A stretch of 64,000 nt of DNA, taken from a virus. Within the stretch, counting starts at the first letter, position 1; every line of letters starts with the position of its first letter. Where the stretch lies: positions 51,633 through 115,632 of the IMG/VR virus record IMGVR_UViG_3300032046_000005, one strand, 5' to 3'. The notes beneath the pieces are model-generated. The model ran no database searches and was not told the origin of the DNA. It was given only the letters and a program-made list of their open reading frames with translations. This document shows, piece after piece, positions 3,931 to 61,640 of the stretch. A program made the translations under genes and the position numbers.

Positions 3931-4000
3931 TTATTTTTTGTCTTTTGGTTATTTAAAACAAATAGTATATTGTTATAAATAGATAATAATTTGTTTATAT

Positions 4001-4132
4001 CTAATAGATTAATTGATTTTTTTTGTTCTTTTTTTCGTTTGAAATAGATTTTTTCAAGTTACAAAGATCTTTTTCAGTTGTATCAAGACTTTTTTCGATT
4101 GAATCTCGAATCGTTATTTCTTGTTCGCGCAT
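4001..4132 (-). CDS. Small hypothetical protein (43 aa)
   Basis: A short frame from ATG 4132 to TAG encodes a charged helical peptide beginning MREQEITIRDSIEKSL. It fills the 250-bp gap between the protease and scaffold genes on the same strand. A TATA-like TATTTATAT lies directly before the start. No family is recognised, and it could be a chance frame. Confidence 0.35.
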   Translation of the reverse strand: MREQEITIRDSIEKSLDTTEKDLCNLKKSISNEKKNKKNQLIY

Positions 4133-4177
4133 ATAAATATATTAATACTTTTTTTAATCTAATATTTTTATTATTGA

Positions 4178-5014
4178 TTAATTATTAATGGTTTTTTTTA
4201 CGCTTACAACACACGGTATGCCATTAGCGGTCGAGCAGCGATCCAAATCGGCGTTGGAGAGCGAAATTGCGAGGTGATCCAAATAAAGGATTTTCTGAAT
4301 TCCGTTTTCAACTTCATCCTTAAACCCAATGCTCACATTATAACCACCTCTTTTCGGATTGAGTAAATCTGTTACTTCGGCTATGTTTTTAAACATTACA
4401 ACATCTCCATACATTACTTCTTTTTCATCATCAGGAGACCAGTTTGCAGCATAGCCAATGACTTCTGCAGCGTGGGCATTTTTTTCTATTGATCCTTTTA
4501 ATGGAATATAATCAGTTTTTCCAAATACATCTTTGATATTATTCCATTCTTTCTTCAATATTATTTTTTGTCCGTCTTTTGTGTATTCAAATTCATTTGC
4601 TCGTGTAAGAATTCCATGTAAAACTGTGAAGTCCTCGTTCATTTTCTCGTTGAAGTCTTTCGTGATGTCGTTGAACGTGTCAATTTCAACGAAGTCTTCG
4701 GTCATATTATCAACGAAATCTTTTCTTGCACATTCGTCTCTACAAATTTCTTGTAAATCGCTCAAGAAATGTGTAAATTCTTTTTGTAAATTTAGATCAT
4801 TTTTAATTTCATCCCAATCGAGATGAAGTAAAGTATCATTATATACATCTATCGTTTCTCTTAAATCTTCAAGAAATATTTTGCTTTCTCCTCTCACATG
4901 TTCTTTTACTGAATGTTCGATTCCTTTTTTTGATGTTCGCTCATATTCAGAAACAGGATAATCTTCAGTAAAATCATTAATATTTCCAATGCATTTAGCG
5001 ATTATCTTTTTCAT
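4178..5014 (-). CDS. Prohead protease candidate (DUF2213-like)
   Basis: The 278-residue protein ends with features of DUF2213 prohead proteases: IPLKGSIEKNAHAAEVIGYA, then YNVSIGF, then LDHLAISLSNADLDRC, which matches the family pattern of a Ser-Ile-Gly strand followed by an asparagine/aspartate-His-Leu-Ala motif. In that family the His and Ser are thought to be catalytic and to cleave scaffold or capsid precursors during maturation. The N-terminal half is acidic and helical and contains several DFTED-type motifs that recur in neighbouring virion genes. Position before scaffold and capsid agrees. Confidence 0.6.
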   Translation of the reverse strand: MKKIIAKCIGNINDFTEDYPVSEYERTSKKGIEHSVKEHVRGESKIFLEDLRETIDVYNDTLLHLDWDEIKNDLNLQKEFTHFLSDLQEICRDECARKDFVDNMTEDFVEIDTFNDITKDFNEKMNEDFTVLHGILTRANEFEYTKDGQKIILKKEWNNIKDVFGKTDYIPLKGSIEKNAHAAEVIGYAANWSPDDEKEVMYGDVVMFKNIAEVTDLLNPKRGGYNVSIGFKDEVENGIQKILYLDHLAISLSNADLDRCSTANGIPCVVSVKKTINN

Positions 5015-9381: not shown

Positions 9382-10203
9382 TTAGATTGTTTCATTATTT
9401 TTTTCAATTTCTTTCAATCGATTGCATAATGGTTGATTTTTGTTCAATACAGACGAATATACTTGCCAATTTCGTTCAGAAGGATTGATTGGAATCATTA
9501 TAGGACGACCAAACGAGGGAAAATTCAAGAAATCTAACATTTCGTTGAAAGTTGATATTGTATAATTGTTCAAGTCTTCTAATCTGAATTTCTTGCATCT
9601 TGGATCGTTAATTTCTTTACCATATACAAGTTGATAATGTTCTTCAGTTTTTCTCATTGCAGTTTCTCTTTGTTCTCCAGTCCATTCTACATTAAAGTAT
9701 AATTCATGTGCTTTTATCATTGTATCGTGATCTCTTTGAACGATTACAACTCTATCGTATTGATTTTCATCTGGATCTTTTTTGTTTAAAAGTGCTTGAG
9801 GATCAACGTTATATACATTATTCCATTTTTTAGGCAATGGCAATCGGTTTCTTGTAGCGATCAAAGCAGAAATTTCGGTATTTTTTTTGGTTACGAATTC
9901 GATTGGAATGCCAAACATTGATTCATGAATATTGCTCAAAATTTTAATGATCCAACTGATTCCACACCTTTCTTGACTTACAAAAATTGTGTTGAGTTCA
10001 TAAGGAAGCTTATTATTTAACTTTGGAAGATATGGTTTAATGTAATCTCTTCTCAAGTATAAATAATTCTCTTTTGAAATCCAATTATGCAATCTACATT
10101 CTAAATTAACACATTCTACATCAAAAAACAATTCTCCATTGCTATCAATTGCTTGTTTCAATAATAGAGGGTTTAATATTTCTCCACAATTTTTACATTT
10201 CAT
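9382..10203 (-). CDS. Sulfotransferase-like protein with N-terminal zinc ribbon
   Basis: First of three related modules in this block. The core has SQERCGISWIIKIL, resembling the sulfotransferase 5'-phosphosulfate loop; DRVVIVQRDHDTMIKAHELY, resembling the 3'-phosphate-binding R...S region; and RLEDLNNYTISTFNEMLDFLNFP, resembling the EdL...FL motif. An N-terminal CKNCG...C...C ribbon (about residues 3-40) is extra. I start at ATG 10203, 11 bp inside the preceding glycosyltransferase gene; an ATG at 10218 is an alternative. The expected reaction is transfer of a sulfuryl group from PAPS to a glycan or protein, but the loop has Cys where typical enzymes have Ser/Thr, so a divergent P-loop transferase is possible. 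Confidence 0.5.
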   Translation of the reverse strand: MKCKNCGEILNPLLLKQAIDSNGELFFDVECVNLECRLHNWISKENYLYLRRDYIKPYLPKLNNKLPYELNTIFVSQERCGISWIIKILSNIHESMFGIPIEFVTKKNTEISALIATRNRLPLPKKWNNVYNVDPQALLNKKDPDENQYDRVVIVQRDHDTMIKAHELYFNVEWTGEQRETAMRKTEEHYQLVYGKEINDPRCKKFRLEDLNNYTISTFNEMLDFLNFPSFGRPIMIPINPSERNWQVYSSVLNKNQPLCNRLKEIEKNNETI

Positions 10204-10951
10204 GATATAACACTTCATAATCTCTTTTCATTTGTTCTGCAGTCAAGTTTCTCCATGTAATTTTATTCTTATTTTCGTTTTGTTTCATTAGTAAATCACG
10301 ATCAAAAACTTTTGATCCGGCATAATGAATTATATGCGAATCAAATCGATTAGGAGAAAAATATGTTATATGATTAAATTTATAACTTAGATTATAAATC
10401 TCAAACCTTAGTTTTCTAATCATATAATTTAAATAATCTTGTTCTGGAGTAACAATACCATTTATTTTTTGTACATTATTTATTTCTTCTATTGTTGTAT
10501 TAAAGATTTCTTTATGTTGTCTAGAAGCAACTATAACTCCTGCGTTCATATAACCTGATTTCCAATTTAAATCACCCAAATGTTTTTGTATGTTTATAAT
10601 TCGTTCATTTCTGTTTGATTCTGGTATTCCTTCATCTTCAAAAATGCCACCAATTTTATTTTCTGGAACAATTTCAAATATATTTGGACAATTAGGAGTA
10701 ATAATAACATCATAATCCAATCTAAGTATCCTATCGTATTTATCAAAAAGTTCATATATTTGATTCTTTTCAAACAAATTAATATTAGAATAAGTATCAA
10801 ATGGTTCTATGTTATATTTCATTTGTGTTATAATTTCTAAATGCAAGTTATATTTTTCACAATACTTTAAAACTGATGGTTTACAAACTTCCCACTCTTT
10901 ACTTTCTCCAATTACTATTGGAACAACAACATTAACAGGCTTATTTCTCAT
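10193..10951 (-). CDS. GT8-like glycosyltransferase
   Basis: A 252-residue GT-A type transferase. YDRILRLDYDVIITPNC carries the D-x-D metal/nucleotide-sugar motif (about residues 73-90), GYMNAGVIVAS is the typical acceptor-side segment, and HIIHYAGSKVFDRD near the C-terminus matches the H-x-x-G region of GT8. It is packed tightly (ATGA overlap upstream, 11-bp overlap downstream) with a sulfotransferase-like gene and other glycan genes. The donor sugar cannot be told. No membrane segment, so cytosolic. Confidence 0.72.
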   Translation of the reverse strand: MRNKPVNVVVPIVIGESKEWEVCKPSVLKYCEKYNLHLEIITQMKYNIEPFDTYSNINLFEKNQIYELFDKYDRILRLDYDVIITPNCPNIFEIVPENKIGGIFEDEGIPESNRNERIINIQKHLGDLNWKSGYMNAGVIVASRQHKEIFNTTIEEINNVQKINGIVTPEQDYLNYMIRKLRFEIYNLSYKFNHITYFSPNRFDSHIIHYAGSKVFDRDLLMKQNENKNKITWRNLTAEQMKRDYEVLYHEM

Positions 10952-13986: not shown

Positions 13987-14880
13987 TTATAACAATCCTA
14001 ATATTTTCAAAGCATCTGGCATTAGTTCTCTATAAATTCTAAAAGATCTACAATGTTGTAATTTATATTCTTCTGGAGTTAACACATAAGGGTTTGGAAG
14101 AGTGGGATCGTGCGTAAATTGAGTATATTCCATTTTTTTGTTCGGATCTCCTTTTTCTTCCATTTTTAAGAAATCTCCTTTTGCATATTCACCAGTAGGA
14201 TCTTGATTTTGAATGTCAATACTCATGGGATCTAAACCCCAATCTTTTGCTATTTGACACGACATTACGTTCCAATTCCTTAATGGAGTATTGAAAGGAA
14301 CTAAGCAAGATCGTATTGGATTGTCTTTCAAATATTGCAATATTTGGTTTTTATCCATTTCGTTCAAATGAGTTTCGACATGATTAATTACATCTGGATA
14401 TGTGTGTTTTGGATATTCTAAGAAGTCTAGTAAATCGCTAAATGTTGGTTCTGTATAGTTGTTTAAATTACCTAAATCAACTAAATACATTCGAGGATCT
14501 TTAAATTCGTGATTATAACACAAATCATAGTAAAATTCGCATTCTTTCAAGAAATCAGGACATTTTTTCAATGTTTCATCATAAGTTAATTCAGGACATC
14601 TATATATTTGCATTGCTTTCATATAACTCTCTTTATCTCGTTTTATAATGATGATTTTATCGTATGGTCTATTCAAGAGTTTCAAGGGATTTATCAGCAA
14701 AACTTCGTTAAATCCTTTTGGAAAATAATATTTATCAATAGTTGCTAAAATTCTACTAATTCCAAAGTTCCAATTCATTATTTCTCCATACATTTTTTTA
14801 TGAATTTCTGATATGATGCCACATACCCATGATGCTCCACATCTTTCTACACTTACTATAATTATGTTTTTTTTAATCAT
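13987..14880 (-). CDS. Sulfotransferase-like protein
   Basis: Second sulfotransferase-like module. IIIVSVERCGASWVCGII near the N-terminus is the putative PAPS loop; DKIIIIKRDKESYMKAMQIY is the R...S region; LVDLGNLNNYTEPTFSDLLDFLEYP is the ED/L-FL segment. About 80 additional C-terminal residues are not present in the other copies. It is coupled to the fusion gene upstream (stop/start overlap) and abuts the radical SAM gene. An acceptor in a glycan chain is likely but unproven. Confidence 0.5.
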   Translation of the reverse strand: MIKKNIIIVSVERCGASWVCGIISEIHKKMYGEIMNWNFGISRILATIDKYYFPKGFNEVLLINPLKLLNRPYDKIIIIKRDKESYMKAMQIYRCPELTYDETLKKCPDFLKECEFYYDLCYNHEFKDPRMYLVDLGNLNNYTEPTFSDLLDFLEYPKHTYPDVINHVETHLNEMDKNQILQYLKDNPIRSCLVPFNTPLRNWNVMSCQIAKDWGLDPMSIDIQNQDPTGEYAKGDFLKMEEKGDPNKKMEYTQFTHDPTLPNPYVLTPEEYKLQHCRSFRIYRELMPDALKILGLL

Positions 14881-17800
14881 TTTCTAACTTTACCTATTTT
14901 ATATTGATTCCATTTTTCTATTATTAATTCTCCCCAATTAGGATTATGTTGCCAGGTAAAAGCTAAAATCTGTGATAGAACCTGTCCCCATTTGGTTAAA
15001 CATACTTCTATTGGAGCCCAACACACTTCTTTTGTTATTTCATCAGGTTGAGTATATTTTACTAGTCCATGCCATTGCATGAACATTGTATCTTTTTCAT
15101 TAAATGTTTGTTTTGTTTCAAGTATTTGATGAACATGCCATGCCCATACTTTTTTGTACTTAAAACCATTTTGTTTACATCTTGATTGAAAAATCAAATC
15201 TTCATTTCTATAAATAAAATCGTCTTCAATTTCATCAATCAAATCTTTTATTGATTCCTTCTGTATCAATTGAAATCCAGAATATGATCTTTTTGTATAA
15301 TGCGTTTTACCTCGTTTGTATGTTTTTCCATCAAAAAATATTCTTTCAGATTCAATAATTCCAATATCTGGTTTTGCATGTTTTTGCATTACTCTAAAAC
15401 TTCCTTTAGTAAGTCTTACATCTGAATGAACGAAGACAAACCAATTTTGGACGAGTTTCATTAATTCAACAAGACACATTCCAAGTGTTTTGTATTTTCT
15501 TTGATCTATTACTTGTATTTCGATATTAGGTGGAATAATGGGTCGTATTTTATATTTGATAACTTCTTCAAAATCAAAATCTTTAATTGATCTATTTATT
15601 CCAAATATGATGCGTTTGACTGGAATTTCTTTTATCCATGATTTCACATTATCAACAAAAAAATCGGTATTAATCCAATAAACAGGACAAATCACATCAA
15701 ATTTTTCTTTGTCTAATATTTTTAATGTGTCAATAGTAGTCAAAAACGGATTCATTGTGAATGTTTCTCCTTTTTGCATTTCTTTTTCCATTGGAGTTGT
15801 TTCATAACCTTCAGTTTCTTCAGTAGTAATGTAATCTATCGCAGGAGTTATTGTTTTTTTATTTGTTTTGAATTCTAGTTTTGTATTACTATATTTTGAA
15901 TGAAGTTTTTGTAATCTTTCGTTGATTAAATCTCCAGCATTAAAATCTGCTGAAAATGCTTCCCACACTCGTTCTGGTGTATTTACAGGAATGATGATTG
16001 GTCTTCCTTCTTTTGGAAAATCTAAAAAATTAAATATTTCAGTAAATGTAGCTACTGTATAATTGTTTAAATCTTCTATATATATTCGCAATACTTTTGG
16101 AGAATCAATTTCATCATATGTTTGATTGTAATATTCTGCTATTCTATCAAACCATACTTTATATTCCGGATTATCTTTATCTGTTTTATAGTCAAGATTA
16201 GGTTTATATTCATTATAATAGTAGAACAACATTGATTCTTTCCAAGATTCGAATTTTCTTTGCAATAAAATGATTCGATCATGTGGTTTTTTTACTATAT
16301 CTTTAATTGGAACATAATTTACAGCATTCCAACCTTTAGGAGAAGGATAATCAGGATGAGCAACTTCTAATCTACTTATCCTCGTGTTCCATACTTTTCT
16401 TTTTTTATACATTTTTTCATATATTAATGAAACATATCGGCAAAACCAAGAAAGTCCACATCGTTCAGTTGTAGAAATTAATATGTTCAAATCTCCAGGA
16501 TCATTTTTATATTCAATTGTTCTGTTTTTAAGGATGTTTGGAGTTAATTTAAAGAATAGTTTTGTAATATATTTTGCATTTTCGATATATGTATTATCTT
16601 TTAATATTTTTTTATATGCATTTTCTACAATTTCTTGTTTGTTTTGAGTTTGATCATATACTTCTTTGATTTCATTTAATGCTTTTATAGCAATATAATG
16701 TTTTCCAGCAATAAAACCAGCATTTTCTAGTATTTGTTTATGCGTTTCATTTTCTAATTTAATAATACACAATGTCTTACATGCCATAGTTTCATATATT
16801 TTATGTGAAAGGTATTGTTGAGTAGCTATATTAACAAACAATGCTTCACATTTTGGTAGTATTTCTCTATATTCAATGTTAGAAATCGGAGTATCAAAAC
16901 ATCGAAATCCTAATTTTTTAAATTCTTCCCATTCGTTATATAAGATGTGAGCAATGGGAACCATCGTGATTTCATTTGCTTTTTCTATATATTCTATGGT
17001 TTCTCGAAATCCAATTCCGGTTATTCTATCGTATTTCTTTTCTTCTGGATGGTATATTTCAGTGTCAATGGCAAGAGGTATGATTTCATGATATGGAACA
17101 TTATACATCCAAAAAGGAGCAAAAATTTTTTCGAAATAATTCATTACAACTCCATGCCAAAGAAATATCACATCAGGATAATCAACTTCTGGAGGTCTTT
17201 TGTATTCCCTATGATGATAAAAAACAGGAATGCTTACATCATTTTTCCACAAAAAATTACATTCATCAATTAGAATGAGATCTGGATAAAAAGAATATTT
17301 TTGTAATATGATTGATAATGGATAATGTTTTTGTTGCATCCAATGTCTATCAAAATATTCGTCATACAAATCGTGAGGAGAAATATATTTTACTTCTTTT
17401 CCTAATTTTTCAAAAGCAATTTTAATACCTTCAGAAAAATGACACGATTCAGCAATAGAGGGACCTATTATAAGTATTTTGTTTAATACTATAACTTTTG
17501 ATATTTTTTCAATTTTTTGTTTTATTTCTTTTTGTTTAATTTCTTCTTTTTTTTGTTTTATTTCTTCTAATGTAGATTTTGATTTTTCTTCAATTTTTTG
17601 CTTTTCTTCTGTTATGTGTTTTATTTCAATTTTTTTTTCAAAGACTTTCAAATCTTCTTTAATTTTAGGAATTGATGTATAAGTATTACTTATTAACCAT
17701 TTCAATCTGTCACGCAAATTATTATCAAGATTATATTTTATAAAAATACCCATGCAATATAATAGATTTTGTTCTATAACTTCATTTGTCCAATTAATTT

Positions 17801-17972
17801 TTTGAAATTCTGGATCATCAAATCCACTTGGATCTATGTTATCTGCTATATTTTCTAATTCTTTTTTATGATTATCATTATCAAGTTTAAACCTACTAAT
17901 ATGACGCAATATAGAACCTATTTCTTTCTTAGCTTTGTTTTTTAAAATCTTTCTTTCTTCTAATGTTGCCAT
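14877..17972 (-). CDS. Three-domain fusion: CgeB-like glycosyltransferase, sulfotransferase-like, GT-A glycosyltransferase
   Basis: A 1031-residue multidomain protein. Residues 1-160 are helical, ending in a Lys/Glu coiled coil. About 163-480 is a GT-B transferase of CgeB/GT1 type (NKILIIGPSIAES at the start; ATQQYLSHKIYETMACKT as the donor-site helix). About 490-700 is the third sulfotransferase-like module (STTERCGLSWFC; DRIILLQRKFESWKES; IEDLNNYTVATF). About 750-1000 is a GT-A domain (FDVICPVYW, FVFVHSDVRL with the acidic metal motif, AWHVHQ). Fusion of two glycosyltransferases and a sulfotransferase suggests sequential building and capping of one glycan. It starts at ATG 17972, next to the acyltransferase stop. 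Confidence 0.65.
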   Translation of the reverse strand: MATLEERKILKNKAKKEIGSILRHISRFKLDNDNHKKELENIADNIDPSGFDDPEFQKINWTNEVIEQNLLYCMGIFIKYNLDNNLRDRLKWLISNTYTSIPKIKEDLKVFEKKIEIKHITEEKQKIEEKSKSTLEEIKQKKEEIKQKEIKQKIEKISKVIVLNKILIIGPSIAESCHFSEGIKIAFEKLGKEVKYISPHDLYDEYFDRHWMQQKHYPLSIILQKYSFYPDLILIDECNFLWKNDVSIPVFYHHREYKRPPEVDYPDVIFLWHGVVMNYFEKIFAPFWMYNVPYHEIIPLAIDTEIYHPEEKKYDRITGIGFRETIEYIEKANEITMVPIAHILYNEWEEFKKLGFRCFDTPISNIEYREILPKCEALFVNIATQQYLSHKIYETMACKTLCIIKLENETHKQILENAGFIAGKHYIAIKALNEIKEVYDQTQNKQEIVENAYKKILKDNTYIENAKYITKLFFKLTPNILKNRTIEYKNDPGDLNILISTTERCGLSWFCRYVSLIYEKMYKKRKVWNTRISRLEVAHPDYPSPKGWNAVNYVPIKDIVKKPHDRIILLQRKFESWKESMLFYYYNEYKPNLDYKTDKDNPEYKVWFDRIAEYYNQTYDEIDSPKVLRIYIEDLNNYTVATFTEIFNFLDFPKEGRPIIIPVNTPERVWEAFSADFNAGDLINERLQKLHSKYSNTKLEFKTNKKTITPAIDYITTEETEGYETTPMEKEMQKGETFTMNPFLTTIDTLKILDKEKFDVICPVYWINTDFFVDNVKSWIKEIPVKRIIFGINRSIKDFDFEEVIKYKIRPIIPPNIEIQVIDQRKYKTLGMCLVELMKLVQNWFVFVHSDVRLTKGSFRVMQKHAKPDIGIIESERIFFDGKTYKRGKTHYTKRSYSGFQLIQKESIKDLIDEIEDDFIYRNEDLIFQSRCKQNGFKYKKVWAWHVHQILETKQTFNEKDTMFMQWHGLVKYTQPDEITKEVCWAPIEVCLTKWGQVLSQILAFTWQHNPNWGELIIEKWNQYKIGKVRK

Positions 17973-18545
17973 TTAGTCAAAATTCCTAATTTTTTCTCTC
18001 ATTCCTATTTTTTTGCAAGGAGAACCGACGTAAATCGTCCAAGGTTCTAAGTCTTTTAACGCCAATGAATTAGAACCGAGTATTGCTCCATCTCCAACCG
18101 TGATACAAGGATGAACGATTGAATTAGTTCCTATGACTACATCTTTACCAATATACATTCTTCCTCTTTTTATATTTTGTTGATTATTTGGAACAGATGC
18201 AGTCATGTGAAAGCCTCCTTGATGCAAGTTTGAACCTGTAACCAAACGAGAACCAGCGGCTAATGCGCTATAATCTCCCATTTCTAATTCCCCTCCTCCT
18301 ACTATGCTTACAAACGATGCAATATGAACATATTTTCCAATCTTGATTCCCATTCCTCCGTAAAGAAATGTAAAATCGTCAATCATGGAATAATCTCCGA
18401 TTTCTATGACTTCTGGATTTACAAACTTAGCCTGTGGAAAAATTTTTACATTCTTTCCAAAACTTTTGAAATCATTTGACATTAATTTACGATATCCGTT
18501 TTCTAATTTTATTTTTGTTAGGCAATCGATTATTTCATTTGGCAT
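17973..18545 (-). CDS. Left-handed beta-helix acyltransferase
   Basis: A 190-residue protein full of hexapeptide repeats ([IV]G-x4): IGDYSMIDD, IGKYVHIA, IGKDVVIGTNSIV, VGDGAILGSNS. It ends with WTIYVGSPCKKIG, the typical end of the maa/NodL/WbbJ family. These trimeric enzymes acetylate sugars using acetyl-CoA, with a loop histidine as base (NLHQGG is a candidate). It sits between the fusion glycosyltransferase and a homing endonuclease. Sugar O- or N-acetylation is likely. Confidence 0.8.
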   Translation of the reverse strand: MPNEIIDCLTKIKLENGYRKLMSNDFKSFGKNVKIFPQAKFVNPEVIEIGDYSMIDDFTFLYGGMGIKIGKYVHIASFVSIVGGGELEMGDYSALAAGSRLVTGSNLHQGGFHMTASVPNNQQNIKRGRMYIGKDVVIGTNSIVHPCITVGDGAILGSNSLALKDLEPWTIYVGSPCKKIGMREKIRNFD

Positions 18546-19348
18546 TTTTTCTCTCCTTTCATATCTCTTAATATTTTACTTTCTGATTTAGTTCTTATTG
18601 TTATATCATATTTTATGAGATTTTGTCTAATAGTTCCATAATTACAATTGTTTTCTTTAGCTATTTCTAATATACCTTTTTGTAATTTATTTAATTGCTT
18701 ATTTTTCATACATTTTTCTGAAGTCCAATATTCTATAATTAAATATATTCTACTAAAAAAACATCTAATTCTATGATTTGTTATTTCTTTAGAAATTTTT
18801 TTTCCTTTTTCCCATTGATGATAACATTTTAATGAACAAAAATGATGACAACTATTTTTATTATATTTACAACCTTTTTTTATTACTTCTTTTCCACAAT
18901 GATCACAATTATATTTATGTTCAATTCCTCCATCTTTCCAATTTGGATTATCTTTACCATTATATTTTCCTTTTCTCATTTCACTTATTTTTTTCTTTGT
19001 TTCAAATGTATGTTTTCCATTATTTCCTCCACATTTAAGATTATAACCATAAGAATGATCTAATGTATTATATTTTTGAATGTAAAAATCTTCTTTTCTA
19101 TTTAATTCATTTTGGCTAATTGCAGAATCAATAATTTTAAATTCAAAATTATTAATTTCATATTTTTTTAAACTATTACATAAATATGAATTAAAATTAT
19201 AATTGCGTAATAATTCATTTAATTTACAAGAACGACTTCTAAAACCTCGTTTATTTACTGTTTGACCAATATATCTTTTATTATTTATTTTGTTTCTAAT
19301 TTGATAAATATATCCATAAGGATTTAAAAAATCTTCTAATGTTATCAT
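18530..19348 (-). CDS. GIY-YIG homing endonuclease
   Basis: GYIYQIRNKINNKRYIGQT near the N-terminus is the GIY-YIG core, and the downstream ERK-type region follows. A NUMOD3-like motif (TKKKISEMRKGKYNG..NPNW) lies mid-protein, then a C4 zinc cluster (CDHCGKEV..CSLKCYH) and an HTH tail like that of the HNH protein at 444-1118. ATG 19348 overlaps the amidotransferase stop by ATGA; a TTG at 19372 is less likely. It splits the glycan operon between the acyltransferase and amidotransferase genes. Confidence 0.82.
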   Translation of the reverse strand: MITLEDFLNPYGYIYQIRNKINNKRYIGQTVNKRGFRSRSCKLNELLRNYNFNSYLCNSLKKYEINNFEFKIIDSAISQNELNRKEDFYIQKYNTLDHSYGYNLKCGGNNGKHTFETKKKISEMRKGKYNGKDNPNWKDGGIEHKYNCDHCGKEVIKKGCKYNKNSCHHFCSLKCYHQWEKGKKISKEITNHRIRCFFSRIYLIIEYWTSEKCMKNKQLNKLQKGILEIAKENNCNYGTIRQNLIKYDITIRTKSESKILRDMKGEKKCQMK

Positions 19349-20379
19349 TCGGCTTTCATTTTTAATTTCCAATATCCATCACCATTCTTTTCTAATATTT
19401 TACGATTTGCAAATTTATCTATTGTTTTTAGAAACAATTCTTTTGAAATATTCAAACCACTACAAAAATCTTCTTCCATCACTAGATCTTTCTGCCAGTC
19501 ATATTTATTAACTCTTTTGACGGCTTCTTTTCTACTCATTTCACCGTGTCTTACCATATTACTACAATGTTCTGTTGTGGCTCCAAATCCAAATTTGATG
19601 AATTTGCAAAATTCATTAATAAGATATCCGACAGTATCCACTTGGCAATATTCAAATCCTTGATATCCTTCACGATCCCATTCGTTTGTATCGTTTAATC
19701 CTTTGAAACCGTATTGTTTTGCAAATTCATATCTCTTTATTAGACTCTTCCAAGGAACATAATAACTTGTAAATATTACATCAAGATCTTTAAATTCATT
19801 AGAATCTTTAAGTAATATTTTAGCATTTGGAGTTTCTTTTTCATTCTTATTTCCAATAGTTATATTTGTGTTTTCTCCCCAAATAACTAATTTAATACCC
19901 ATTTTCTGTGCTATTTCTAATGGTTTTTTATAAAGAATTTCATCCCAATATTTTTCTGGATGTAAATAATTTAAAAAATCTTCTCTTGTTCTTTTTATAA
20001 TTTCTTTTCTATTTGGAGTAAAAGTAATGATATCAATTCCAAAACGTTCGCTTAAATTATCAAAATTTTTTCTTCCAGTATTGGTCCAACTAAAATTATC
20101 AATCATTATTCCTAATGGATTCATTAAAAGTTTTTCTTTAAATAAATAAACCAAATAATGAGAATCTTTTCCTGAACTAATACAAATAATGCAATCATAA
20201 TTTCCATCATTTCGTTTATATTTTTTACATAATTCTTCAAGTTCTTTCCATCTTTCATTCCAATCTATTTTTTTACTTTCTTCAAATTGAACACACGAAT
20301 TACATATTCCTTCTTTTGTAAACGAAAGATTCAATCTTTGATTAGTCATCACACATCTTTTACAACGCAAAAATTTCAT
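19345..20379 (-). CDS. N-acetyl sugar amidotransferase, PseA/WbpG-like
   Basis: MKFLRCKRCVMTNQR and GICNSCVQFE give the N-terminal zinc cysteines, and CIICISSGKDSHYLVYLF is the PP-loop ATP-binding motif. The 344-residue length and layout match the N-acetyl sugar amidotransferase family that amidates nonulosonic acids (PseA) or 2,3-diacetamido sugars (WbpG). Family members normally work with HisH/HisF-like ammonia-supplying subunits, which are not seen here. It fits with the PseB/WbpM-like gene two genes upstream and the NeuB/NeuC-like genes at 32-34 kb. Confidence 0.78.
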   Translation of the reverse strand: MKFLRCKRCVMTNQRLNLSFTKEGICNSCVQFEESKKIDWNERWKELEELCKKYKRNDGNYDCIICISSGKDSHYLVYLFKEKLLMNPLGIMIDNFSWTNTGRKNFDNLSERFGIDIITFTPNRKEIIKRTREDFLNYLHPEKYWDEILYKKPLEIAQKMGIKLVIWGENTNITIGNKNEKETPNAKILLKDSNEFKDLDVIFTSYYVPWKSLIKRYEFAKQYGFKGLNDTNEWDREGYQGFEYCQVDTVGYLINEFCKFIKFGFGATTEHCSNMVRHGEMSRKEAVKRVNKYDWQKDLVMEEDFCSGLNISKELFLKTIDKFANRKILEKNGDGYWKLKMKAE

Positions 20380-20859
20380 TTAAATCAACTTCTTTATAGT
20401 ATATTGATTGTTGCATATTCCTAAATCCCAATCTTTTTTTGTGTGACAAGAATGACATAACCATTCATAATCTTCAATATTTCGTGTATAATTTCCTTTT
20501 GAATGATCAAAACTTAATTCTATTTTTCTTTCTTTTCTACATTTCATGCAATATATTGGTTTGGAATAATTGGTATTTAACCATATATGAATTGCTTTTT
20601 GTCCAGCATTATTTCCTTTCCATAAATAATGTTTTTCTCTTCCTAAAAACCCTTTTAATCCTTTATTCCAAGGTATTTTTCCTTTTAAATATTTTATTTT
20701 TTGAGATTCAGAAAGATTTCTTATTTTTATGTTAAAGCGTACTAACCAATTAAAAACAGTTGTAGGACTATTTACATTACATAAATGTGCTATTTCTACA
20801 GTTGAATTTTTTTTAATTATATACTGATCATATAACCAATTTTTATCTTTATAACTCAA
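20380..20859 (-). CDS. HNH homing endonuclease
   Basis: The order is an N-terminal HTH (STVEIAHLCNVNSPTTVFNWL), then YLWKGNNAGQKAIHIWLN, then CMKCRKERKIELSFDHS and CHSCHTKKD. The central WKGxxAG..AIH.W segment is nearly the same as in the HNH protein at 444-1118, so they are related. The start overlaps the dehydratase stop by 4 bp. It is an insertion inside the glycan operon, and the flanking genes look intact. Confidence 0.8.
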   Translation of the reverse strand: MSYKDKNWLYDQYIIKKNSTVEIAHLCNVNSPTTVFNWLVRFNIKIRNLSESQKIKYLKGKIPWNKGLKGFLGREKHYLWKGNNAGQKAIHIWLNTNYSKPIYCMKCRKERKIELSFDHSKGNYTRNIEDYEWLCHSCHTKKDWDLGICNNQYTIKKLI

Positions 20860-21722
20860 TCTATTTCACTCCACTTTTCATATTCATTAGGAATTATCCA
20901 ATATTTAGGATTCACATCATTAGAAATCAAGATTTCATAATCAGAAATAAGTTTTTCGTGTAATTTTTCTCCTAATCGATTACCAATTATTTCGATAGGA
21001 TAATCTTTTCCCACTATTTCTTGAATAACATCTATTAGTTTTTGTTCTCTAAGTTTCGGAACCCATATTTCTCCATTTTTACCTTCTATAAATGCTTTCG
21101 TGATGAAATCAATCATTTCTTTAGGATACATGAAAAACCGTTCCATATCTATATTTGTAAGTAATATGGGTTCTTTTTTTTCTTTTTTTTCTTTAGCAAT
21201 TTGAACTATTGAACCTCTAGAACCATATATATTTCCTAGTCTCACACAAACCATTTGAATCAGAGGATCTTGACTCCATCTTACCTGTAGCAATCTTTCA
21301 CTTATTTTTTTTGAACATCCCATTAAGGATGAAGGTTCAATTGCCTTATCTGTACTAATATGTAATAATTTCTTGATTTTATGTTCAATAGAAGCAGTAA
21401 TAATGTTATCAAGTCCCATAATATTTACAGAAACTGCTTCCATAGGATTATATTCACAAAAGGGAACATGTTTGATTGCGGCACAATTTATTGCATAATT
21501 TACTCCTTTCAATGCTCTACGAACTCTTTCTAAGTTTCTTACATCACCCAACAAACACCGAATTCTGTTATTATTCCATTTTTGTTGACATTCCCATAAA
21601 GAATTTTCATCATTACTGAATACTCGTATTGAATATGGTTTTTGTTTTAATAGATATTCAACAATGAGAGAACCAATAGATCCTGTTCCTCCAAATACAC
21701 ATGTTGTCTTATCTTTAAACAT
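20856..21722 (-). CDS. UDP-sugar 4,6-dehydratase, PseB/WbpM/CapD-like SDR
   Basis: CVFGGTGSIGSLIVEYLL is the NAD(P)-binding Rossmann motif. HISTDKAIEPSSLMGCSKK holds the catalytic Lys with Met in place of the usual SDR tyrosine, which is normal for the FlaA1/WbpM/PseB branch. NCAAIKHVPFCEYNPMEA is also diagnostic of that branch. At 288 residues it is a soluble, single-domain form. The family converts UDP-GlcNAc to 4-keto-6-deoxy intermediates, the first step of pseudaminic acid and related sugar pathways. Confidence 0.83.
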   Translation of the reverse strand: MFKDKTTCVFGGTGSIGSLIVEYLLKQKPYSIRVFSNDENSLWECQQKWNNNRIRCLLGDVRNLERVRRALKGVNYAINCAAIKHVPFCEYNPMEAVSVNIMGLDNIITASIEHKIKKLLHISTDKAIEPSSLMGCSKKISERLLQVRWSQDPLIQMVCVRLGNIYGSRGSIVQIAKEKKEKKEPILLTNIDMERFFMYPKEMIDFITKAFIEGKNGEIWVPKLREQKLIDVIQEIVGKDYPIEIIGNRLGEKLHEKLISDYEILISNDVNPKYWIIPNEYEKWSEID

Positions 21723-29642: not shown

Positions 29643-30410
29643 GTGATACAAACAAACAAAATATACAACATTGATTGTCAAGAAGGATTCAAACAATTGA
29701 ACGATAATTCGATACATTTGATTGTTACATCTCCTCCTTACAATGTCAACAAAGAATACGAAGAAAACCAAACATTTGATGATTGGTATGAACTAATGAA
29801 AGAAGTAATAAAAGAATCAAAACGAGTTCTCGTTTCTGGAGGAAGACTATGCATTAATGTAGCTAATATTGCTCGAAAACCTTATATTCCTTTAAATTAT
29901 TACATAATAGATATTTTACTTCAGATAAAATTTTTACTTAGAGGTATTATAATATGGGAAAAAGGAATATCTGGAGGAAAAAGTACAACTTGGGGATCTT
30001 GGAGATCTGCTTCTAATCCAGTTATTAGAGATGATTATGAATTTATTATTGTTTCTTGTAAAGATAAATACAAACTTGAACCAAAAGGTATTAATTCAAT
30101 TTCTTCAAAAGATTTTCTTTTTTGTTATAATGCAGTATGGCATATGAATGCAGAATCAAATCCTAATATAAATCATCCTACTCCTTTTCCAATTAATTTA
30201 CCAAAGCAATTAATAGAATTTTATACTTTTGAAAACAACATTATATTAGATCCTTTCATTGGATCAGGAACAACAGCAATTGCTGCCTTATTAACAAGAA
30301 GAAAGTTCATAGGATTCGAAAAAGAAAAAAAGTATGTTGACTTGGCAAATAAACGCATTTATCCATACTTAGGACAACAAAAAATAACAGACTTTACCAG
30401 TCATCAATAA
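29643..30410 (+). CDS. DNA methyltransferase (N4-cytosine/N6-adenine, TSPPY type)
   Basis: The catalytic motif IV is TSPPYNV near residue 30, and the SAM-binding FxGxG is ILDPFIGSGTTAIAALL near residue 203, followed by FIGFEKEKKYVDLA. This catalytic-before-SAM order defines beta-class amino-methyltransferases. GTG 29643 is the likely start, since the ATG just before it reads straight into a stop. It is convergent with, and overlaps, the terminase gene by 17 bp. No partner nuclease is adjacent, so self-protection is the likely role. Confidence 0.85.
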   Translation: MIQTNKIYNIDCQEGFKQLNDNSIHLIVTSPPYNVNKEYEENQTFDDWYELMKEVIKESKRVLVSGGRLCINVANIARKPYIPLNYYIIDILLQIKFLLRGIIIWEKGISGGKSTTWGSWRSASNPVIRDDYEFIIVSCKDKYKLEPKGINSISSKDFLFCYNAVWHMNAESNPNINHPTPFPINLPKQLIEFYTFENNIILDPFIGSGTTAIAALLTRRKFIGFEKEKKYVDLANKRIYPYLGQQKITDFTSHQ

Positions 30411-32196
30411 CAACTCTGCTTTTACCTCTCCTTAATTGTCTCCTAATTTCTTCTTCTTTATCTTCGGGAGTTTTGATGTTTCTATGAGTTAGATTATCTT
30501 CAAAATCAGCATACACGCTCATAATTTCTACAAATGGATCTTCACTAAGAGCAACTGGTATTTTCTGAAGTTCGTATTCTGCATTTGCCAACGCATCAAT
30601 GGCATCAAGTTTAGGATAATACGGAAACTTTAATATCTCGTTTGCAAGTTCAGAACGTTCTAATGTTGACATCATGCTTATTAATTCGTTTTTAATGGGT
30701 AATAAAAGGCGATCTTTTATTCGTTGAATTTTCTCTCCAGTATTATGCAAGTCCATGATTTCAGCATAAATAGCAATCTTGTTTGTTATTTGTTTACCAT
30801 CATGTATAAAATACACTCTAGAACGACACATTTCAATGAAATCATCTCCTCCTCCTTGTTTTTCAATTATGATTATGATTCGTATGCTTTCGTATTTTTT
30901 CTTGAATTCAATCACAAAATCGTTAATCTTTATGAGCAACTCTTCAAGCGTGGTATGTTCTGTCCAATCGTGTAATATGACTTTATGACCAGTGTTCATG
31001 TTTCTCAAACCAATCACACATCCGGTATAACTTGAAGATTGTTTCGTGGTTGTAGCTCGATCAATCGTTATGAAACAAATGTCATATTTCCGGTTAACTG
31101 GATCTTCAAGCAAGTTTATTGTCTTGATATGATCCCAAATTTCTCCTGTTATTGGGTGCGGATCTTGCTCATATTCAGAAAACCAAGCGTATTCTCCCAC
31201 GTGTTTTCTAGTTGCTTCTAAATTTATCTTTTTCTTTTTAAGATCTTTTTCAAATGAAGGTAAACTTGGATGAGTGAATAGTTCAGGACATAATAACGAT
31301 CCGTCTTCATTTCTTGTTTTTCTCTTATAAACAACTAAATCTTTACCAAATTTTTCTCCAATAAAATCAAAAAAGTCTCCTTCAAATTTATGAGTTCCCG
31401 TAAAACTCCACTTATCTGGATGAATTGGATAAAGCGAACTATTAAAATGAAGTTCAAGCGTTTCTTCTAAATGTCGTTCTTTCATGAATTTAGAATCAAT
31501 AGGATCATCAACCGAAATCCATAATTTTCGTTCTATTTTTCGTTGTTCTTCAACATATCTCTTGATTTCTTTAGGATCAAAAGCTCCATCTTCGTTATCT
31601 TCAAACATCTTTACAAAATCGTCCCAATCTTCATTAGACATGTTTTCAAAACGGTCTTGTCGACCTAATGAATGCATTCCTAGAGTATCTTTTGAAGTTA
31701 TCAAATAACAATCAAACTTGCCTCCATTTACTAACCTAAAATGAAATGGAGATGTCCTTTTATCTTTCTCAACCAATCTTTGTCGTTCAAAAAAAACATA
31801 AACTGTATATGCAATTTCTTTTCTTCGATCAGTCCATCCTAACAAAAGAACATCGTAGTTTTGGTACCACATTGCCCATTCGTATTTCCACGCGTATTCA
31901 ATTGATTTCCCATGATTACGAGGAACAAGCGTTTCTTCAAATGTAGATTCCCAAGTTAAATCGTGATGTTCTTTTTGCCATTTGAACAAACCTCTGAATT
32001 TAGGATATGTAATATATCTACAAAACTTTTCAAATCCAGGATCTTTTGTTGGAAGTGGAATTAGTTCTTCGTCTAATTCTGATTCTTCTCCATCTTTCTT
32101 TTTCTTTTTCTTTTTAGGATCGTCTTTCTTGATTATGTTTCCATTTAAATCCCATAAACCAAGCACGGTTTGTGGAGCATATTCTTCTTTAGACAA
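30394..32196 (-). CDS. Terminase large subunit
   Basis: 600 residues. The ATPase Walker A appears as LVPRNHGKSIEYAW near residue 92. The nuclease domain begins with ICFITIDRATTTKQSSSY (about 375), with the acidic residues of the RNase H-like site, and QDPHPITGEIW precedes it as in other large terminases. The N-terminus has a run of seven lysines. It powers DNA packaging into the portal. The start seems to be TTG at 32196, about 20 bp after a GTTTAAATAT box, so the transcript may be leaderless with a rare start codon. Confidence 0.88.
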   Translation of the reverse strand: MSKEEYAPQTVLGLWDLNGNIIKKDDPKKKKKKKDGEESELDEELIPLPTKDPGFEKFCRYITYPKFRGLFKWQKEHHDLTWESTFEETLVPRNHGKSIEYAWKYEWAMWYQNYDVLLLGWTDRRKEIAYTVYVFFERQRLVEKDKRTSPFHFRLVNGGKFDCYLITSKDTLGMHSLGRQDRFENMSNEDWDDFVKMFEDNEDGAFDPKEIKRYVEEQRKIERKLWISVDDPIDSKFMKERHLEETLELHFNSSLYPIHPDKWSFTGTHKFEGDFFDFIGEKFGKDLVVYKRKTRNEDGSLLCPELFTHPSLPSFEKDLKKKKINLEATRKHVGEYAWFSEYEQDPHPITGEIWDHIKTINLLEDPVNRKYDICFITIDRATTTKQSSSYTGCVIGLRNMNTGHKVILHDWTEHTTLEELLIKINDFVIEFKKKYESIRIIIIIEKQGGGDDFIEMCRSRVYFIHDGKQITNKIAIYAEIMDLHNTGEKIQRIKDRLLLPIKNELISMMSTLERSELANEILKFPYYPKLDAIDALANAEYELQKIPVALSEDPFVEIMSVYADFEDNLTHRNIKTPEDKEEEIRRQLRRGKSRVVIDDW

Positions 32197-32317: not shown

Positions 32318-32977
32318 TCAAGCATTTTTAATGACTTTTTCTAAATCGTCAAATGAAATTGACCATTTGTTTTCCAAACAATCGTTGTTTAACTTGACGT
32401 GCTTTTCAAAATATCCTTGCCAAAAAGGAGTAAAATGTTTATAATTTAACACATATTCAAGTAAACAACTACAAGACGTGTGATCCGAAATTCCATTAAA
32501 TATTCTAAATAAATTTGAAGGATAATCAATAAATTTAGCTGGATATTTCGGAACACATAATAAATCAATTCCATTCAAATAAACTTTTTCTGGTTCGTGA
32601 TCATACGAAATAAAAAACGGTTTATCTGTTAAATCTACAAGATCAATTAATTCTTCGTTATTAGAATCTTTACAACGAATCTTGTAATAATTAACTCCAA
32701 TTTTTTCACAAATTTCTATAGCTTCAGGATAATACATTGGAGTAAAAAACACTTCTTGTTCAATTGACTTGCCATATTGAAACAATTCATTTGCTTTTTC
32801 ATAGTCAAATATGATTGTTTTCAAAAAATCGTGATAAGGATTTCCTTGTATTTCATTTTCAGAAAAAAGTTGAAATTTAGACGCCCAACATCCAATTTCC
32901 TTGCTTCGTTTAATCATTTCTTTGGCTTCTTTCAAATTTTTGAAGTTACATCCACATTCTGCTATGATCTTTAACAT
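32318..32977 (-). CDS. Reduced NeuB-like nonulosonic acid synthase
   Basis: A 219-residue TIM-barrel type protein. IIAECGCNFKNLKEAKEMI...KFQLF matches the NeuB start (AEiG.NH.G......I..A...gad.vKfQ); YYKIRCKDSNNEELI matches the K-[IV]-x-S-x-D-x-x-N region; GISDHTS and FEKHVKLN carry the two histidines that bind Mn in NeuB, and the Glu of EKH. The family condenses phosphoenolpyruvate with N-acetylmannosamine-type sugars. It is shorter than the usual 340 residues and lacks the C-terminal SAF domain, so it may act with a separate lid or on another substrate. Overlaps the NeuC-like gene. Confidence 0.75.
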   Translation of the reverse strand: MLKIIAECGCNFKNLKEAKEMIKRSKEIGCWASKFQLFSENEIQGNPYHDFLKTIIFDYEKANELFQYGKSIEQEVFFTPMYYPEAIEICEKIGVNYYKIRCKDSNNEELIDLVDLTDKPFFISYDHEPEKVYLNGIDLLCVPKYPAKFIDYPSNLFRIFNGISDHTSCSCLLEYVLNYKHFTPFWQGYFEKHVKLNNDCLENKWSISFDDLEKVIKNA

Positions 32978-33612
32978 TTTCTTCCCTTATTTCTTTTACC
33001 TAACCATATTATCTTATCTTTATCAATCAAAAAAGGTGCTTCGTAAACTCCTGATGAACTATTTGTGTAAAACTTTTTACAACAGGCAATCAATCCTAAC
33101 AACTGATCGTGTGGTAAATTTGCATATGATTGATCTGGATTGGATCCAATAAATATTTCCTTAATTGTTGTTGTTTGATTATACAACACTAGATTGTAAG
33201 GTTCTTCAGGAACTTTAGACAAATCTATTTTAGAATCAAACAAGTGAATAGCTCCTATTATTTTCACGTTTGATTTTCTTCCAATTGATTTCAATATTTT
33301 TTTTGTAGTTTTTGCACATTTTTTACTTTCACACCATTGTTCGTTGCTCAAAATCGTGATACAATGCCTTAAATAATCGTCGTAGCAAGTTAAATACTTT
33401 TGTTTTACTCCTGTTCCGTAATGTATTATGTATTTATGTTTCATAAATGCTTCTAATGTCAAATCAAATATTTCTTTTCGATCTCCAATTGCAATAAATA
33501 TATCACAATTATCAATAGTATCTACAAACGAACAATCTTTTAATATCTGTTTCATGTTTTCAACTAAAACTTTATCAGATCTCGAACTGAAAGGAATCAT
33601 AATTTTTTTCAT
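32971..33612 (-). CDS. Reduced NeuC/WecB-like UDP-N-acetylglucosamine 2-epimerase
   Basis: 213 residues. DIFIAIGDRKEIFDLTLEAFM matches the GDR-x-E segment of hydrolysing 2-epimerases, YIIHYGTGVKQ corresponds to the H-x-x-x-G loop, NLVLYNQTTT to the Y-x-x-x-T-x-H-P-x-T region (with the HP replaced), and YTNSSSGVYEAPFL to the uridine-binding SSSG-x-x-E. Full-length enzymes are about 370-390 residues, so this is a shortened form. Its overlap with a NeuB-like gene strongly supports a joint pathway: UDP-sugar to ManNAc-type product to nonulosonate. Activity is uncertain because of the size. Confidence 0.65.
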   Translation of the reverse strand: MKKIMIPFSSRSDKVLVENMKQILKDCSFVDTIDNCDIFIAIGDRKEIFDLTLEAFMKHKYIIHYGTGVKQKYLTCYDDYLRHCITILSNEQWCESKKCAKTTKKILKSIGRKSNVKIIGAIHLFDSKIDLSKVPEEPYNLVLYNQTTTIKEIFIGSNPDQSYANLPHDQLLGLIACCKKFYTNSSSGVYEAPFLIDKDKIIWLGKRNKGRKC

Positions 33613-33950
33613 ATTAATAATGGTTCAATTTCTTGTTTATAATAAAAATCAAATTGTGTTCTTCCTACTTTAACATACCGTTCTTGCCATTCAGGAGTCC
33701 ATTCATTTTTTTTGTTTAAAAATGGTGCTTCTTCGAATCGTTTTTTTATTTCCGGAATATATCCTTGTAGAAAGTATTCAAACAATAGATTTTTACTTGT
33801 AAGTTTACAATACAAATATCTTTTCAATTCTCCAATTATTTTGTTAGGATTTTCAGTAGTTTCTTTACTTGCAATTGCTTGTCCTGTTCTAGCTAAAAAT
33901 AGAAATATTTTTACCTGTTCTTGTGGAACTCCAAATAATTTTTCATCCAT
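33609..33950 (-). CDS. Hypothetical protein upstream of NeuC-like gene
   Basis: A 113-residue helical protein beginning MDEKLFGVPQEQVKIFLFLA, joined to the NeuC-like gene by an ATGA overlap. No domain is recognised. Coupling hints at a link to the same pathway, but it may just be operon packing. Confidence 0.55.
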   Translation of the reverse strand: MDEKLFGVPQEQVKIFLFLARTGQAIASKETTENPNKIIGELKRYLYCKLTSKNLLFEYFLQGYIPEIKKRFEEAPFLNKKNEWTPEWQERYVKVGRTQFDFYYKQEIEPLLI

Positions 33951-58802: not shown

Positions 58803-60275
58803 ATGAAAGAATATAAATGGATTGATGTAAAGGATTTGAAATTTTCGGGATTGAGGGAAATAAGGCAACATACCGTGGAACAGATAAAGGAAAGTGTGAA
58901 GGAAAATGGATTTGACGAGGCGAGGGTATTGTTGGTAATTCCTGATACTGAAAACGGAAAGTATGTAGTAGCGGGAGGAAATCATAGGCTAAAAGCATTG
59001 ATTGAGATGAAAGTGGAAAAAGTGCCATGTTTGATCGATAACGAAGGGGATTTGTATCAACTTGCGATACAAGATAACGAAGCGGAAAAAACTTATGCGC
59101 CAATTGATTTGTTTGATTATTTGTATATGATTGAACGACTGAAAAAAGAAAATAAATCATTAAAAGAAATTAGTATAATAATTGGATGGGAAGAAAATCT
59201 TATTAAATCTTATTCTGCTTTACTCAAAAATATAGTTGCAGAATTTTTAGAGTTTTGCAAGTTGCATCAAAAAGATCGTGCATCTGAAAAAGTTGCAATT
59301 ACAACTTTTAATTTTACTGAAGGATGGTTTCGAAATAGTGGATTATATGAACTTAACGAAGAACACCAATTAAAAACAATCAAATGGTTCATTGAAGAAA
59401 AGAAATGTAAAGTATCAACAAATCAAATACAAGAAAAAACAAATGCGTTAAAAGAAATAGAAGAACAAATACAATTACTTGAAGATAATTTAGATCCAAC
59501 AATAGATGCTAAGAAATTGATTGAATCGATAGAAAACGGAGAATATACAACGGAAAGATTAGCAACGGTAATTAAAAGATTGAACGAAGGAGCAAAAGAT
59601 AAAGCGTTGTTTGGAGTAGATTGTAGAGATGAATTAAAAAAGTTAGAAGATGGTTCGATTGATTGTATGATTACTGATCCTCCTTGGGGTGTTGAATACG
59701 TGCCTTCAAGAAAAACAACTAATCCACAATTTGATAAAGAACTGAAAGAGGTATTGATTTTGCTTGATGATGTATTCAAGGAATGCAAAAGAGTATTGAA
59801 AAATAATGGACACGTTTATGTGTTCTTTCCAACAATGTTTTTTGTTGAATTTAAGAATTTGCTTGAAAAATATTTTGCAGTATATTCTATTCCATTGATT
59901 TGGTATAAAAATAATCATAATCTATGTAATTTTAAGCAAAGATATGCTTCGATTTATGAAACCGTGTTTTTTTGCAAGATGGAAAAAGGAGATTTGAGAG
60001 AACTAAATGCTAAAGTTTCACCTGATGTGTTGAAGTATGATAAACCAATGAACAAACAACACGATGCACAAAAACCAGAAGATTTATTAGAATATTTGAT
60101 AAAGAACTCAACAGGAAAAGAAGAAGTTATATTAGATCCATTCATGGGATCTGGAAGTACATTAATAGCTGCAATAAAATCTGGAAGGCATTATATTGGA
60201 TTTGAAAAAGAAAAATCATACGAATCAAACTTTAAAAGAAGAATAGGAGAAATATTAGAAGGTAAAGCTAAATAA
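58803..60275 (+). CDS. ParB-like domain fused to DNA methyltransferase
   Basis: 490 residues. The N-terminal 110 form a ParB/Srx-like domain (ARVLLVIPDTENGKY, VVAGGNHRLKALIEMKVEKVP). A helical linker follows. The C-terminal half is an amino-methyltransferase with MITDPPWGVEY near 290 and VILDPFMGSGSTLIAAI near 445, beta-class order. Fusions of this kind occur in phages and plasmids, where the ParB part may act as a nuclease or targeting module. Followed without a gap by a nuclease-like gene. Confidence 0.82.
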   Translation: MKEYKWIDVKDLKFSGLREIRQHTVEQIKESVKENGFDEARVLLVIPDTENGKYVVAGGNHRLKALIEMKVEKVPCLIDNEGDLYQLAIQDNEAEKTYAPIDLFDYLYMIERLKKENKSLKEISIIIGWEENLIKSYSALLKNIVAEFLEFCKLHQKDRASEKVAITTFNFTEGWFRNSGLYELNEEHQLKTIKWFIEEKKCKVSTNQIQEKTNALKEIEEQIQLLEDNLDPTIDAKKLIESIENGEYTTERLATVIKRLNEGAKDKALFGVDCRDELKKLEDGSIDCMITDPPWGVEYVPSRKTTNPQFDKELKEVLILLDDVFKECKRVLKNNGHVYVFFPTMFFVEFKNLLEKYFAVYSIPLIWYKNNHNLCNFKQRYASIYETVFFCKMEKGDLRELNAKVSPDVLKYDKPMNKQHDAQKPEDLLEYLIKNSTGKEEVILDPFMGSGSTLIAAIKSGRHYIGFEKEKSYESNFKRRIGEILEGKAK

Positions 60276-60983: not shown

Positions 60984-61640
60984 ATGAAAATATTAAATCT
61001 TTTTAGTGGAATTGGAGGAAATAGAGAATTATGGAAGAATGAGTATGAAATAACTGCTGTAGAATATGATGAAAAAATAGCTAAATTATATTCAGAAAGG
61101 TTTCCAAAAGATAAAATGATAATAGGAGATGCTTATGAATATTTAGAAAAAAACTATCAAGAATTTGATATAATTTGGGCATCTCCTCCTTGTGTTACTC
61201 ATTCAAGAATAAATATTAATTTCAATCAAACATGGAATATAAGACTTCCAGATTTGAAATTATATTCAATCATAATTTTTTTAAAACAATGGTTTAAAGG
61301 TAATTGGATTGTAGAAAATGTTATTCCTTTTTATTCTCCTTTAATTAAACCTAGTTGTATTAGAGGAAGACATTGTTATTGGTCTAATGTTGCTATTCCT
61401 TCTGATAAAAAAAAAAGAATAAGAGAAGTAGGATGTCACCATTCTAAAAAATATTTATCTACTTTAAATCCAAAACAACAAACAAAGGAAAAATTTTCTA
61501 AAATAGTAAGGAATAAAGTAAATTCTATGGAAGGAAAGATTTTATTAGATTATTTAATACACAAAAATCAAAAAAGTATATTTGATTATAATATAAATGA
61601 TAATACCAAAACTTTAAATACGAACAAAGACATATATTAA
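60984..61640 (+). CDS. C5-cytosine DNA methyltransferase-like protein (short)
   Basis: 218 residues. LNLFSGIGGNRELW is the SAM motif, ASPPCVTHSRI the catalytic Pro-Cys, and WIVENVIPFY the ENV motif. Typical enzymes are 300-400 residues, so the target-recognition domain and last motifs are shortened. This is common in phage Dcm-like proteins that methylate their own DNA. It has its own promoter after the nuclease gene. Confidence 0.78.
   Translation: MKILNLFSGIGGNRELWKNEYEITAVEYDEKIAKLYSERFPKDKMIIGDAYEYLEKNYQEFDIIWASPPCVTHSRININFNQTWNIRLPDLKLYSIIIFLKQWFKGNWIVENVIPFYSPLIKPSCIRGRHCYWSNVAIPSDKKKRIREVGCHHSKKYLSTLNPKQQTKEKFSKIVRNKVNSMEGKILLDYLIHKNQKSIFDYNINDNTKTLNTNKDIY
61612..61622 (+). promoter_or_regulatory. 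TATA box
   Basis: CTTTAAATACG inside the end of the methyltransferase gene, about 21-31 bp before ATG 61643. Confidence 0.5.

Follow-up and report, generated by a model that had tools for sequence, protein, structure and literature searches.

Can a phage make a sialic acid-like sugar with biosynthetic enzymes that are little more than half of their usual length? The question is raised by two genes in the last 64 kb (the window, to which coordinates refer unless another record is named) of a linear, 115,632-bp record with 28.7% GC from an uncultivated phage. One (32318 to 32977, minus strand) codes for P0001, a compact 219-aa NeuB-like synthase, and the other (32971 to 33612, minus strand) for P0002, a reduced 213-aa NeuC-like protein of the UDP-GlcNAc 2-epimerase type. 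The initial annotation described them as adjacent, overlapping genes with NeuC and NeuB motifs, both about 60% of usual length and the NeuB without its SAF domain, and this description holds throughout: the open reading frames lie at these coordinates, the quoted motifs are present in the sequences, the lengths are ∼63% (P0001) and ∼57% (P0002) of the usual ones, and the NeuB match ends before SAF. The neuC-like stop and the neuB-like start overlap by 7 nt (32971 to 32977, minus strand), suggesting translational coupling, and a purine-rich Shine-Dalgarno-like stretch (AAGGGAAG) lies within the last neuC-like codons, 5' of the neuB-like start. The neuC-like start is itself overlapped by 4 nt by a 113-aa open reading frame without a family match (33609 to 33950, minus strand), the first of this overlapping trio, and the terminase large subunit gene (30394 to 32196, minus strand; phrog_38, 2.7e-29) is directly downstream of the pair. 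Elsewhere in the window are two DNA methyltransferases of the N4/N6 type and a fragmentary open reading frame that resembles a C5 cytosine methylase (29643 to 30410, 58803 to 60275, and 60984 to 61640).

P0001 belongs to the NeuB family by sequence and by fold. It exceeds the gathering cutoff of Pfam PF03102 (E 3e-9; 37 bits against 22.1), matches TIGR03586 (E 2.5e-11), and reaches 124.5 bits (E 4e-37) with a NeuB profile built solely from other viral records; it is under the NCBIfam equivalog cutoffs for PseI (43 versus 340 bits) and NeuB (34 versus 400 bits), and is ∼34% identical to its nearest relative. The AF2 model, made with seven phage sequences, is an eight-stranded (beta/alpha)8 barrel (pLDDT 83, pTM 0.86) whose 12 best Foldseek matches in the PDB are all of the NeuB family (NeuB, PseI, or SpsE type). 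Alignment to 1xuu gives the following P0001 equivalents of Neisseria meningitidis NeuB residues (in parentheses): E7 (E25), K34 (K53), Q36 (Q55), T79 (T110), K99 (K129), S124 (S154), Y145 (Y186), S164 (S213), H166 (H215), E191 (E234), and H193 (H236). The catalytic Glu25, Lys53, Lys129, His215, and His236 are all represented, and the substitutions, in N. meningitidis numbering, are Cys at S132, Asp at E134, Pro at N184, and Glu at D247. Across 13 aligned divergent viral NeuBs there are 13 invariant columns, ten of which are at active-site positions (E25, K53, Q55, K129, S154, Y186, S213, H215, E234, and H236). Part of this active-site residue list is given in PMC6795526, the rest being general background on the N. 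meningitidis enzyme. The initial annotation had made its reading of P0001 depend on a NeuB barrel with its active site, and the predicted fold contains both.

The match of P0001 stops at position 264 of the 350-position cellular NeuB model, and P0001 therefore lacks SAF. Arg314 of N. meningitidis NeuB comes from the SAF lid, and its replacement by Ala (R314A) abolishes activity (PMC6795526); that this residue is missing from P0001 counts against a working nonulosonic acid (NulO) route. As judged from sequence and model, P0001 retains the catalytic core of NeuB but has no counterpart of the lid found in ordinary NeuBs, and the predicted NeuB step is well supported, the best supported of the pair.

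The predicted NeuC step is doubtful. P0002 exceeds the gathering cutoff of PF02350 (Epimerase_2; E 5e-10, 39.2 bits against 30.6), matches TIGR03568 (E 1.5e-16, under the NCBIfam equivalog cutoff), and scores 64 bits (E 1e-18) with a NeuC profile built solely from other viral records. The epimerase assignment stands for much of the active site: P0002 keeps equivalents of human GNE Arg19, Asp112 (D44), Arg113 (R45), Asp143 (D78 or D79), Arg147 (R82), Ser301/302 (S185/S186), Glu307 (E191), and Arg321 (R207), and hence the catalytic Asp and Arg together with most of the residues that bind UDP, and its best AF2 model matches the NeuC structures 5zlr and 5xvs (E 1e-9). It does not stand for the remainder. 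The phosphate-binding and otherwise strictly conserved His220 of GNE is Asn (N145), and Glu134, which contacts the sugar 4-OH and where Gln or His is tolerated, is Gly (G66), this column having been placed by hand via the H-x-E-G-G pattern (residue roles are from PMC4793188). The GNE Asn253 segment is absent, as are ∼45 C-domain residues and roughly the last 50, with two C-domain segments gone. It is the loss of the conserved His and of these two segments that makes activity doubtful. AF2 predicts the N domain and a C domain reduced to about three strands, and the models disagree; catalytic competence is uncertain because the other four of the five models are poor (mean pLDDT 48 to 60).

A sialic, legionaminic, or pseudaminic-type pathway had also been sketched from a dehydratase and an amidotransferase elsewhere in the window, and both enzymes are as described. 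The 288-aa PseB/WbpM-type nucleotide-sugar 4,6-dehydratase (20856 to 21722, minus strand) matches PF02719 (E 7e-72) and the PseB profile TIGR03589 (237 bits, under the equivalog cutoff), and the 344-aa WbuX-type N-acetyl sugar amidotransferase (19345 to 20379, minus strand) scores 254 bits with TIGR03573, above the cutoff of 203. They are part of a glycan island (∼9.4 to 21.7 kb) together with a methyltransferase, a radical SAM/SPASM protein, a GT8-type glycosyltransferase (10193 to 10951, minus strand; PF01501, 8e-12), and a 190-aa hexapeptide-repeat acyltransferase (17973 to 18545, minus strand; PF00132, 6e-13). The last is a candidate sugar N/O-acetyltransferase with WcaF-type (9e-19) and NeuD/PglD-type (3e-12) matches, both under cutoffs. 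A 1,031-aa protein (14877 to 17972, minus strand) has a weak glycosyltransferase match (PF13524, 2e-4, under cutoff).

Two other features of the island are of note. The WbuX gene is flanked on both sides by endonuclease genes, one for a GIY-YIG homing enzyme and one of the HNH type (18530 to 19372 and 20380 to 20859), which looks as though homing elements had targeted the amidotransferase or carried it along. Three proteins (9382 to 10218, 13987 to 14880, and within 14877 to 17972) share the motif ERCGxSW followed by IH/IY..MY, which by eye resembles the start of a sulfotransferase; the two short ones have no Pfam match, and all may be glycan sulfotransferases or other P-loop transferases.

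The pathway itself stands only in part. The pair, the dehydratase, and the amidotransferase are present and have relatives in near-complete pathways, but the PseB and WbuX genes are ∼11 kb from the pair and do not share an operon with it, which counts against reading them as one route, and an aminotransferase and NeuA are lacking. No DegT/LegC aminotransferase is detectable in the 115,632-bp record, even with phage-derived profiles. The initial annotation saw no CMP-transferase in the window and suggested looking for one in the rest of the genome; neither a family search nor phage-derived profiles detect NeuA (CMP-sugar cytidylyltransferase) anywhere in the 115,632 bp. Both absences apply to this record, which may be a fragment.

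Protein searches with P0001 and P0002 give no match among 50,697 phage records, and single-protein scans of viral contigs find no near kin of P0001, P0002, or the terminase. Relatives were therefore reached by profile scans of viral contigs and a phage collection, and those with a readable NeuB C-terminus were counted. SAF is absent from 19 of these 22 viral records (window included). SAF-less viral NeuBs are commonly encoded beside NeuC, NeuA, a PseB-like protein, DegT, a hexapeptide transferase, and WbuX, and NeuA is present in nine of ten SAF-less-NeuB phage records tested with the same family search as the window's record. Record L096 has DegT, a hexapeptide transferase, NeuA, NeuB, a PseB-like protein, an SDR, and NeuC, adjoining terminase and portal genes; L099 has a PseB-like protein, a hexapeptide transferase, DegT, NeuA, NeuB, and NeuC; L133 has NeuA, a hexapeptide transferase, NeuC, DegT, a PseB-like protein, NeuB, and WbuX, adjoining the terminase small and large subunits; and L098 has NeuA, NeuC, DegT, a PseB-like protein, NeuB, and WbuX. 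L007 and L008 both have GNAT, GlmS, a PseB-like protein, NeuB, NeuA, Gfo/Idh, and DegT; the names GNAT, GlmS, Gfo/Idh, and FemAB were given to L005 to L010 seed proteins by eye from their sequences, not from library matches. The GC content of the loci ranges from 0.29 to 0.66. The PseB-like, WbuX, NeuC, and NeuB set of the window recurs in L098 and L133 with DegT and NeuA added, and several phage sets with a SAF-less NeuB appear, from their gene content, to be near-complete legionaminic-type pathways. L098 is also 115 kb long, and a backbone shared with the window's phage was considered and rejected, the two being unrelated. What appears distinctive from these comparisons is that phages seldom keep SAF and that the predicted barrel of the window is among the shortest measured.

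The reductions of P0002 have parallels in the same records. A shortened N-domain is common to P0002 and the phage NeuCs of L005, L095 to L097, L099, and L101, and the 322-aa NeuC of L101 (5860 to 6825) further resembles P0002 in having Asn where the phosphate-binding His is otherwise strictly conserved.

Terminase genes are the neighbors of nonulosonate genes in L010 (5061 to 9203), L096 (1199 to 6792), L101 (4783 to 6825), L133 (3072 to 9693), and the window (32318 to 33612), and also in L097; the terminases of the five records belong to different families, and the position is a possible preferred insertion site. In L006 (3886 to 6555), a NeuB-NeuC-NeuA trio sits among head genes, with a portal and (by eye) a prohead protease on one side and a likely major capsid gene on the other. 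Reading L006 to L008 by eye raised the suspicion of Maf-like flagellin NulO transferases, for which Pfam gave no match. The phage collection also includes L137 (FPLJ01000048), a capsule locus of Moritella viscosa, which was set aside as bacterial. L010 also contains a low-complexity repeat tract (3780 to 4283) that is open in several frames on both strands (HSHS.. / GNGDGYGYG..).

Loss of SAF is not viral as such, since Bacteroidota and Leptospira NeuBs also lack it, and the idea that it is virus specific was rejected. SAF is present in 79 of 80 cellular NeuBs in a sample that was fetched with PseI-like patterns and is thus biased, and a first scan of genome contigs with narrow compact-NeuB patterns found none. 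In a search of 198 genomes from the single bacterial phylum to which a Bacteroidia MAG belongs, SAF-less NeuBs of ∼290 aa nonetheless prove common, and in the solved 290-aa chain from Leptospira (6ncs) just ∼27 residues follow the barrel match. In the same phylum, the widespread 289- to 298-aa SAF-less NeuBs of loci L102 to L116 (G041, G073, G112, G134, and others) end in a conserved helix (...GDGVKRVYEGE..RKKLRR). In trees, P0001 sits on a long terminal branch and groups weakly with L005, L007, L008, and L010, also with long branches, whereas the viral NeuBs of L135 and L136 group with the Bacteroidota type; from this placement, NeuB probably entered viruses on more than one occasion.

The reading preferred here, to which we give an even chance, is that the pair forms the compact core of a NulO route carried by the phage and dependent on the host for some steps, and its sugar product would probably supply an envelope or virion glycan. 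The phage PseB-like dehydratase and a host aminotransferase would make a UDP-amino-sugar, possibly with contributions from the phage hexapeptide acyltransferase and the WbuX-type amidotransferase. In the weakest step, the NeuC-like protein would take off UDP and invert C2, and in the best-supported one the NeuB-like barrel is predicted to condense PEP with the 2-epimeric sugar by means of its Glu/Lys set and the conserved His pair that binds metal. A host NeuA, assumed because the phage record has none, would then convert the product to CMP-NulO, and the NulO may end on the envelope of the infected cell or on the virion, a destination suggested by the position of the pair in the terminase/portal region and by the glycosyltransferase island ∼10 kb away.

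A tentative alternative is that the compact NeuB is active in PEP condensation and makes a different ulosonic acid, because it lacks the Arg through which SAF reads the N-acetyl group, with the NeuC-like protein acting as a modified UDP-sugar hydrolase and a product that is not necessarily CMP-activated. The absence of Arg314, together with Pro at N184 and Glu at D247 in a site that is kept elsewhere, is consistent with this, as are the Gly at the sugar 4-OH contact of P0002 and the failure to find NeuA in the 115,632-bp record. However, most phages with a SAF-less NeuB carry NeuA, so that CMP activation is the usual fate, and Bacteroidota and Leptospira likewise have SAF-less NeuBs. It is rather unlikely that the pair is the decaying remnant of a once whole pathway like that of L133 or L098, with DegT and NeuA lost, NeuC eroding, and no sugar made any longer. 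The two reading frames are uninterrupted and overlap closely, and a protein only ∼34% identical to its nearest relative has kept the principal catalytic residues of NeuB, which implies purifying selection; the missing DegT and NeuA, the lost NeuC residues and C-domain segments, and the long terminal branch of P0001 would fit decay, but the shortened NeuC N-domain and the Asn at the His position recur in the other phages named above. Nonviral contamination, misassembly, or chance similarity is very improbable, even for an uncultivated metagenomic record without near kin, since the pair adjoins a terminase gene, the neuC-like gene overlaps genes on both sides, other contigs have comparably compact genes next to terminase, portal, or capsid genes, and the profile scores exclude chance.

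An extension of the preferred reading, a core completed by host steps, is possible but speculative: phages may have evolved their own lid-less minimal NulO synthases for use late in infection on virions or the envelope of the dying host, and this pair, which would be among the smallest NeuB and NeuC proteins, would work with a host aminotransferase and NeuA. If so, NeuB chemistry can proceed without the SAF Arg. The characterized NeuB is dead without that residue, yet most of the phage NeuBs found and a large cellular group have no SAF, and a 219-aa NeuB would bear directly on how NulO synthases bind sugar without a lid. Near-complete phage NulO pathways also suggest that phages may rewrite sialic acid-like glycans of host surfaces or virions, beyond recognizing or trimming them. 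The literature searched, with subscription journals outside its coverage, describes phage enzymes modifying the NulO of the host, but neither SAF-less NeuBs nor near-complete NulO cassettes in phages; neuB and neuA have been counted among virome genes (PMC3877843).

Among known systems, bacterial NeuB, PseI, and SpsE (PF03102 plus SAF; 1xuu, 8h2c, and 1vli) share with P0001 the barrel fold and the metal/PEP site (Foldseek E 1e-10 to 1e-12), but they are ∼345 aa rather than 219 aa, and P0001 lacks SAF with Arg314/Phe288, has shorter loops, and is under their NCBIfam equivalog cutoffs. The SAF-less NeuBs of Bacteroidota (∼290 aa) and of Leptospira (6ncs, 290 aa, the top fold match) likewise consist of the barrel only; these are ∼70 aa longer and retain a post-barrel helix, and P0001 is outside the Bacteroidota SAF-less group in trees. 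P0002 shares the GDR Asp/Arg, DD..R, NSSS..E, and GxRxxGR motifs and the fold (E 1e-9) with NeuC/LegG, the hydrolyzing UDP-GlcNAc/UDP-diNAcBac 2-epimerases (5xvs and 5zlr; human GNE, 4zht), and differs in length (213 versus ∼375 aa), in Asn for His220 and Gly for Glu134, and in its missing C-domain segments. The epaA and epaB genes of Acinetobacter baumannii prophages (PMC12053666) are another case of phage genes with a role in the nonulosonate metabolism of the host, but they modify host-made pseudaminic acid and do not synthesize the backbone. The cassettes of the uncultivated phages L005, L007, L008, L010, L096, L098, L099, and L133 differ from the window's record in having NeuA and an aminotransferase, and in NeuCs that, where present, are 300 to 390 aa; like the window, they combine a compact NeuB with a PseB-like protein, often with NeuC or WbuX, and like its pair they lie near structural or packaging genes.
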